Assembly: GCF_900188395.1 (NCBI RefSeq)
Contig: NZ_FZOB01000007.1
Coordinates: 28,720 to 92,719 of the forward strand
Direction: 5' to 3'
Source of the DNA: Desulfurobacterium atlanticum
Lineage (GTDB): Bacteria; Aquificota; Aquificia; Desulfurobacteriales; Desulfurobacteriaceae
DNA: 64,000 nucleotides
In this document: positions 40,821 to 42,247 of the stretch, one piece after another
Layout: each line of letters begins with the position of its first letter
How positions within the stretch are numbered: position 1 is the stretch's first letter
The notes under the pieces: generated by a model
Database searches by the model: none
Seen by the model: only the letters and a program-made list of their open reading frames with translations
Told to the model about the DNA's origin: nothing
Translations under genes and position numbers: made by a program

Positions 40821-40850
40821 GCCCCGACACTGTCGGGGCGTTTTTATTTT
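40821..40850 (+). terminator. Intrinsic terminator of the DUF505 operon
   Basis: Eight-base-pair stem GCCCCGAC/GTCGGGGC with a three-base loop, followed by GTTTTTATTTT. It lies 24 bases past the stop. Confidence 0.92.
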
Positions 40851-40885
40851 ATAATGACCTATATTTTGTAGGTGCAATTTTGTCT

Positions 40886-40895
40886 TGTGAGGTAT
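40886..40895 (+). repeat. Target-site duplication, left copy
   Basis: TGTGAGGTAT directly abuts the left end of the MITE-like element and is repeated exactly at its right end. Confidence 0.75.
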
Positions 40896-41040
40896 GAGGC
40901 TGTTTGAAAAATGGCTATGAACTTTAAGAGATCCTTCGGGCTTTGCCCTCAGGATGACTTTCTTCGTCATTCTGAGGCTGCTTTGCAGCCGAAGAATCTC
41001 AATACCTTTTAGAAACAAATGAGAATTTTCAAACACTCTC
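40896..41040. mobile_element. MITE-like element, 145 bp
   Basis: Non-coding element with 15-base terminal inverted repeats, GAGGCTGTTTGAAAA at the left and the complement of GAGAGTGTTTGAAAA at the right (13 of 15 matching). It is flanked by an exact 10-bp direct repeat. The core is a large palindrome holding smaller hairpins. No ORF is present, so it would need a transposase supplied in trans. A 9-12 bp duplication is typical of some IS4-family elements, which suggests a source family but does not prove it. It lies between a terminator and the start of the M20 gene. Confidence 0.75.
40928..41000. repeat. Nested palindrome core of the element
   Basis: The outer arms GAGATCCTTCGG and CCGAAGAATCTC pair with one mismatch. 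The inner arms CCTCAGGATGAC and GTCATTCTGAGG also pair with one mismatch. Small hairpins GGGCTTTGCCC and GGCTGCTTTGCAGCC sit in each half. From memory, very similar CTCAGGATGAC/CCGAAGAATCTC palindromes are scattered through many bacterial genomes. Confidence 0.75.
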
Positions 41041-41050
41041 TGTGAGGTAT
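41041..41050 (+). repeat. Target-site duplication, right copy; contains ribosome-binding site
   Basis: Second copy of TGTGAGGTAT. The GTGAGG inside it is the Shine-Dalgarno of the M20 gene, with the ATG ten bases further on, so the duplication kept the site intact. Confidence 0.75.
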
Positions 41051-41056
41051 TGGGTT

Positions 41057-42247
41057 ATGAATTTTATAGGAGAAGCAAAAAAGATAAAAGATTTTATAGT
41101 TAACTACAGAAGAATTGTCCATCAATATCCTGAGATTTCCGGCAGGGAGTTTAGAACTTCAGAGTTTGTAGCAGAAACGCTAAAAGAGATAGGAGTTGAT
41201 GAAGTTTATGAGGGTTTTGGAAGAACAATAGGTGTGGTGGGAATTATAAAGGGAAAGGGAGATAAAACTGTTGCCCTTCGTGCTGATATGGATGCTCTTC
41301 CGGTAAAGGAGGAAACGGGAAAATCTTACGCTTCTAAAGTTGAAGGGGTAATGCACGCTTGCGGTCACGATGCTCATGTGGCGATGGTTTTAGGTGCTGC
41401 TAAACTTCTTGTGAATATTAAAAATCAACTTAAAGGTAATGTAAAACTTATATTTCAGCCGTGTGAGGAGAGACAGGACTGCCGCGGTGCTAAAAGGTTG
41501 ATAGATGCGGGAGTTTTAAAGAATCCGGATGTAAATGTGATTTTTGGTATTCATGTAAATCCTGAGCTTGAAACAGGTAAAGTTGCAACATGTACAGGTC
41601 CTGTTCTTGCATCTTCTGATGTGTTTTCAGTAAAAATTTTTGGAAAAGGAACCCACGCTTCAAAACCTCATAAGGGAATAGATACCGTTTTAATTGCTTC
41701 TCAGGTTGTTAATACACTTCACCATATTGTAAGCCGCAGGGTTGATCCTCTTGACCCGGTTGTTCTTACAATAGGGACGATTAAAGGTGGAGAAGCGGAA
41801 AACATAATTCCTGAAGTTGTTGAACTTAAAGGGACAGTTAGAACGTTAAATGAAAAGATAAGGAAAGAAATACCTATCTGGATTGAAGAGGCTTTAAAAG
41901 GGATTACAACTGCCTACGGTGGAAAGTATGAATTTAACTATCAGGAAGGAACTCCGCCGCTTATAAACGATGAAAAAACGGCTCTTTTTACTATTGAAGA
42001 GATTGTTAAACTGTTGGGAAGGGAGAATTTTGTGTATCTAAAAAAACCTTCTATGGGCGGAGAAGATTTTGCTGAGTATCTTAAATTTGTTCCCGGGGTT
42101 TACCTTCGTCTTGGCACTGGAAATCGTGAAAAGGGAACAACATTTCCGCTCCATAGCCCAAAGTTTGATATTGATGAAGATGCTCTTCCTGTTGGAACAG
42201 CCGTTTTATCCTATTTAGCTTTCAGGTGGCTTGAGAAAAATGGTTGA
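41057..42247 (+). CDS. M20 family amidohydrolase (hippurate/N-acyl-amino-acid hydrolase type)
   Basis: Zinc amidohydrolase of about 396 residues that removes an acyl or similar group from amino acids. Metal ligands are in GVMHACGHDAHVAMVLG and in QPCEERQDCRGAKRLID (the Glu-Glu pair), and a late His is in FPLHSPKFDID. A dimerisation domain lies at about 185-300. I use the ATG ten bases after GTGAGG; a GTG five codons earlier would overlap that site. Related proteins include HipO, YxeP and N-acetyl-diaminopimelate deacetylase; dapF nearby on the other strand gives only weak support for a lysine-pathway role. The 5' leader contains the MITE-like element. Confidence 0.87.
   Translation: MNFIGEAKKIKDFIVNYRRIVHQYPEISGREFRTSEFVAETLKEIGVDEVYEGFGRTIGVVGIIKGKGDKTVALRADMDALPVKEETGKSYASKVEGVMHACGHDAHVAMVLGAAKLLVNIKNQLKGNVKLIFQPCEERQDCRGAKRLIDAGVLKNPDVNVIFGIHVNPELETGKVATCTGPVLASSDVFSVKIFGKGTHASKPHKGIDTVLIASQVVNTLHHIVSRRVDPLDPVVLTIGTIKGGEAENIIPEVVELKGTVRTLNEKIRKEIPIWIEEALKGITTAYGGKYEFNYQEGTPPLINDEKTALFTIEEIVKLLGRENFVYLKKPSMGGEDFAEYLKFVPGVYLRLGTGNREKGTTFPLHSPKFDIDEDALPVGTAVLSYLAFRWLEKNG

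Follow-up and report, generated by a model that had tools for sequence, protein, structure and literature searches.

The 145-bp element in the M20 leader

The leader of an M20-family peptidase/amidohydrolase gene (41057..42247, + strand; PF01546, E 7e-43) raises the question of how one gene comes to have two copies of its Shine-Dalgarno sequence, one beside the gene and one orphaned upstream. In the window analysed here, a stretch of 64,000 nucleotides from genome G000, these copies lie within two 10-bp direct repeats, TGTGAGGTAT (40886..40895 and 41041..41050, + strand), which are identical, abut both ends of a 145-bp unit (40896..41040, + strand) without any gap, and constitute the only exact matches to this sequence on either strand of the 64-kb window. 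The right-hand repeat contains the working Shine-Dalgarno of the M20 gene, GAGGT, and three congeners have either GAGGT or GGGGT at the corresponding position. The unit is delimited by 15-nt terminal inverted repeats, GAGGCTGTTTGAAAA on the left (40896..40910, + strand) and GAGAGTGTTTGAAAA, read on the minus strand, on the right (41026..41040), which match at 13 of 15 positions (87% complementary) and enclose a nested palindromic core (GAGATCCTTCGG...CAGGATGAC / GTCATTCTGAGG...CCGAAGAATCTC; about 40928..41001, + strand). The original prediction had described a 145-bp non-coding element with these ends and an exact 10-bp flanking repeat, and all its coordinates proved to be exact.

The longest open reading frame wholly within the element spans 33 aa, and the element holds no transposase gene. 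This candidate reading frame, of 33 codons, is located at 40911-41012, preceded at a poor distance by the upstream Shine-Dalgarno copy. Folding of the 145-bp unit is stronger than that of shuffled sequences (z -4.9), in agreement with the suggestion that the core palindrome could form RNA structure. A scan of the window against Rfam yielded no family matches, and an exact search of a genome contig collection with a 32-base piece of the element, from which the window's own records were possibly excluded, returned no match.

The congeners G001, G002 and G003 carry the M20 gene at 77-83% identity, and comparison of the same locus revealed an empty site with a single Shine-Dalgarno in two of them, G001 and G002. 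The gene upstream of the M20 gene is 85-89% identical in these two genomes, both of which keep its intrinsic terminator (40821..40839, + strand); this upstream gene was looked for in G003 and not found. Between the terminator and the start codon, G001 and G002 have only a short leader containing TATATT and GAGAGGT. When the window flanks are joined at one repeat copy, the resulting leader aligns with those of G001 and G002 nearly gap-free, and the TATATT and Shine-Dalgarno of the G003 leader align as well. Because the joined-flank leader aligns with the leaders of the congeners, the ancestral site had one Shine-Dalgarno. Two earlier proposals are thereby borne out: that removing the element and one repeat copy restores a compact leader, and that the duplication copied the Shine-Dalgarno of the M20 gene, present once at the empty sites and twice around the element here.

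The promoter assignment required partial revision. The original prediction had described the old leader, separated from the gene by the insertion, as including a TATAAT at 40850; this box is not conserved in the relatives. The TATATT located 10 bp further downstream (40860..40865, + strand) is invariant in four genomes and, being conserved, is the likelier candidate for the -10 box; a sigma-70 scan recognised no promoter, so both boxes are candidates only. Since the conserved TATATT lies upstream of the insertion, the promoter should have been left intact. The element was also considered as a transcription terminator, but only the terminator of the upstream gene was recognised, and none within the element.

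Sister copies and the probable parent insertion sequence

A search of the G000 genome (1.74 Mb, 23 contigs) for copies of the element identified 19 full or nearly full-length copies, including that of the window, which are interspersed and have constant boundaries. After orienting, 15 of the 19 prove to lie between duplications of 10-12 bp that differ at no more than one position (10 of these 15 are exact), and one further copy has a 9-bp duplication with two mismatches. No recognisable duplication is present at three copies, namely L004, which lies near a contig end, and the degenerate L017 and L019. The copies are nearly all intergenic, the sole apparent overlap being that of L004 with a predicted short open reading frame. 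Its recurrence elsewhere in the genome with identical boundaries shows that the 145-bp unit is not a chance arrangement. The element is a true, non-coding MITE, as first proposed: it is multicopy, its other full copies share its ends and boundaries and have duplications of their own, and two relatives have an empty site at the M20 locus. Among the first 15 copies, identity averages 97%, and one copy matches that of the window at 100%, so the MITE spread recently; copies in G003, of the same genus, are more diverged, at 92% identity or less.

A search of relatives with the end pattern uncovered a 980-bp insertion sequence (IS) in about 20 copies in G005, a genome from another genus of the same family. 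The ends of this IS (GAGAGTGTTTGAAAA / GAGGGTGTTTGAAAA or close variants) share GAGRGTGTTTGAAAA with the ends of the MITE, and 13 of its sites show duplications of 9-12 bp, mostly 10-11. Its single open reading frame encodes a DDE transposase (PF01609, E 2e-9) that matches the NCBIfam IS5 model NF033579 with E 3e-60 and 204 bits, against a cut-off of 140. An IS256/mutator transposase (PF00872) was also looked for, with no more than a sub-threshold fragment coming up, and a sequence search of the PDB for relatives of the transposase returned none. In G005 (L103-L121) the reading frame lacks a stop codon within the IS: it continues through the right inverted repeat and terminates at a stop in the target DNA. 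Close relatives of the IS come from Desulfurobacteriaceae records, and G000 itself holds two copies, with 98.4% and 96.9% DNA identity to the G005 IS over all 980 bp, one of which is flanked by an exact 11-bp duplication. The anticipated IS with matching ends and duplications of about 10 bp is thus found both in a related genus and in G000, and so high a sequence identity between genera suggests that the IS was transferred horizontally in the recent past. In both G000 copies (L142 563-1542; L143 581-1560) the reading frame is interrupted after 270 codons by a shared in-frame TGA, at a cost of about 45 C-terminal residues, suggesting that the TGA arose before one IS was copied from the other, or that it spread by conversion. 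Because both copies carry this premature TGA, the MITE/IS family may now be immobile in G000 for want of an active transposase, and the mover would have been either a related IS or an intact copy of this one that existed earlier or is missing from the assembly.

The sites of the IS and of the MITE also share a target preference: outside the duplication, both favour ...T|TGACA on each side, read in the outward direction. A weight matrix trained on the 13 G005 IS sites alone and applied to the 15 G000 MITE sites gave a mean of 1.8, versus -5.8 at random nearby positions (z 6.2). In 5000 shuffles of the letters within the sites the mean never rose above -0.8, short of that observed, and much of the matrix signal was lost once the register was moved by one base. 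The window site has the highest matrix score of the 15 MITE sites, within the top 0.04% relative to random positions. This transfer of the matrix from one set of sites to the other constitutes the strongest evidence that the MITE would be moved by the IS transposase, or by one of equal specificity.

It is therefore highly probable that we are dealing with a non-autonomous MITE that depends for its movement, in trans, on the DDE transposase encoded by the 980-bp IS5-type IS with the same ends. Judging from sequence, that IS5-type transposase is probably the actual mover of the 145-bp element. The DDE transposase would cut and insert the element in trans, favouring a loose palindrome, TGTCA N~10 TGACA, and its cut would duplicate the central 9-12 bp. 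The M20 leader would have held such a target, TTGTCT-TGTGAGGTAT-TGGGTT, overlapping the Shine-Dalgarno, and because of this overlap one Shine-Dalgarno would have come to lie by the gene and an orphan upstream. As this well-suited target sequence overlaps GAGGT, the duplication is explainable without any link to translation, and target preference alone can account for the duplicated Shine-Dalgarno.

Possible effect on translation and alternative origins

If transcription of the gene still starts from the upstream promoter, as is likely, the insertion has made the M20 leader longer by about 155 nt. An 8-nt sequence in the element, CAATACCT, is exactly complementary to AGGTATTG across the Shine-Dalgarno, and folding predicts that the two pair. 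At 70 C, the AGG is predicted to be unpaired about 10% of the time with the element, versus about 50-70% without it; at 37 C, the Shine-Dalgarno is predicted to be mostly paired with or without the element. Because the predicted pairing lowers Shine-Dalgarno accessibility at 70 C, a modest drop in translation is possible, and the main effect of the insertion may be a longer, structured leader with translation modestly reduced through masking of the Shine-Dalgarno. The original view that translation was left intact is qualified by this predicted folding, in which the Shine-Dalgarno becomes somewhat less accessible. A Shine-Dalgarno-like sequence, CAGGAGG, directly adjoins a second MITE copy as well (C7:21642, L013). 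A broader reading would have the family repeatedly landing at Shine-Dalgarnos, here those of the M20 gene and of the gene by C7:21642, rebuilding them by duplication and inserting structured leaders that tune translation with the genes intact; we regard this as improbable.

The ends and duplications shared with the IS would fit a remnant of a full IS that arose through internal deletion, with the same mobilisation and another origin. Similarity between MITE and IS is, however, limited to the 15-18 terminal bases, with none convincing beyond them, and this origin has a slim chance of being correct. A slimmer one attaches to the proposal that the element is a cis-regulatory RNA of the M20 gene (a leader structure, attenuator or riboswitch) that merely resembles a transposon. 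Its strong fold and the CAATACCT/AGGTATTG complementarity, with predicted AGG accessibility falling to about 0.1 at 70 C, would suit such a role, but congeners with the M20 gene lack the element, its sequence occurs at 18 other places, it has no Rfam match, and the Shine-Dalgarno is largely paired at 37 C even in its absence.

Core-like repeats without the IS-like ends are clustered in G000 (C1:133-161 kb) and G001 (C1:240-266 kb), and GTCATTCTGAGG, absent from most of the 61 genomes searched, has 29 occurrences in G000 and 14 in G001. A literature search covering the core repeat and its spurious peptide found nothing relevant. The core is related to a separate, older palindromic repeat found in intergenic DNA of the genus; most simply, one copy of that repeat came to be flanked by IS-like ends. 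The original prediction had held that copies of the core without these ends and duplications would speak against a MITE; such copies do occur, as the older separate repeat, and the full copies nonetheless keep ends and duplications. Least credible of all is a REP/palindrome-type spread, by a Y1 transposase or recombination, with coincidental IS-like ends: the core does appear to derive from an older palindromic repeat common without these ends in G000 and G001, but the boundaries of the full copies fall exactly at the IS-like ends, their duplications are as long as those of the IS, and their sites follow its target preference without any shift in register; REP-type insertion is not known to make such duplications.

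Dense core-related palindromes were also observed in L144 (G000 C1:130000-145000) and L145 (C1:155000-164000), with nucleotidyltransferase-like gene pairs and polysaccharide genes, as judged from translations, nearby. Separately, a CRISPR-like array of regularly spaced repeats, GTCGTAATCCCTCACGTTTTTTAGGGCATTTCAAC, is located on G000 C2 (L031 1830-2400), where a MITE copy lies within a few hundred bases of it.

Relation to known mobile elements

For a MITE mobilised in trans by an IS, the MITEAba12/ISAba12 pair is, by analogy, a close structural precedent. MITEAba12 of Acinetobacter, with a length of 113 bp, 16-bp ends and 9-bp duplications, is attributed to ISAba12 (PMC6382973). In both systems the IS is of the DDE type and close to 1 kb long, the duplications span roughly one helical turn, and the MITE matches its IS at the ends only (PMC6382973). 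They differ in ends and host, the present element having 145 bp, 15-bp ends and mostly 10-11-bp duplications. The duplications of MITEAba12 show no sequence trend (PMC6382973), whereas a clear preference is apparent here just outside the duplication, and movement has been observed for MITEAba12 (PMC6382973), whereas we infer it for the 145-bp element. The small mobile repeats of RU type in enterobacteria are likewise short, MITE-like, intergenic and multicopy (PMC2759123, PMC2229807); their sequence is unrelated, and for the 145-bp element a probable mobilising IS has been identified.

The IS itself resembles the IS5 family in its transposase, which exceeds the NF033579 cut-off, and in its size of about 1 kb and single open reading frame. 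Duplications in the IS5 groups are usually 2-9 bp long, whereas this IS makes duplications of 9-12 bp, mostly 10-11, so that "IS5-type" is to be read as referring to the transposase only. The IS4 family is characterised by duplications of about 10 bp and a Y-(2)-R-(3)-E-(6)-K signature spacing (PMC2266710). The present IS is similar in its 9-12-bp duplications and in the Y-2-R-3-E-6-K spacing of its translated transposase (YRFRGLIESIFGEVK), but its ends, GAG..., fit none of the IS4 subgroups in PMC2266710, and it is shorter (980 bp). Because an IS4-like duplication length and YREK spacing accompany an IS5-type transposase, the border between IS4 and IS5 is blurred for this IS.

The element represents a new but ordinary MITE family, and a well-supported one. 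For one insertion, the empty sites, the sister copies and the probable parent IS have all been identified, adding to the Desulfurobacteriaceae a pair of MITE and IS whose target preference can be defined. The M20 locus provides a clean natural case of a 5'-leader insertion in which the gene keeps its Shine-Dalgarno because the target duplication rebuilds it.
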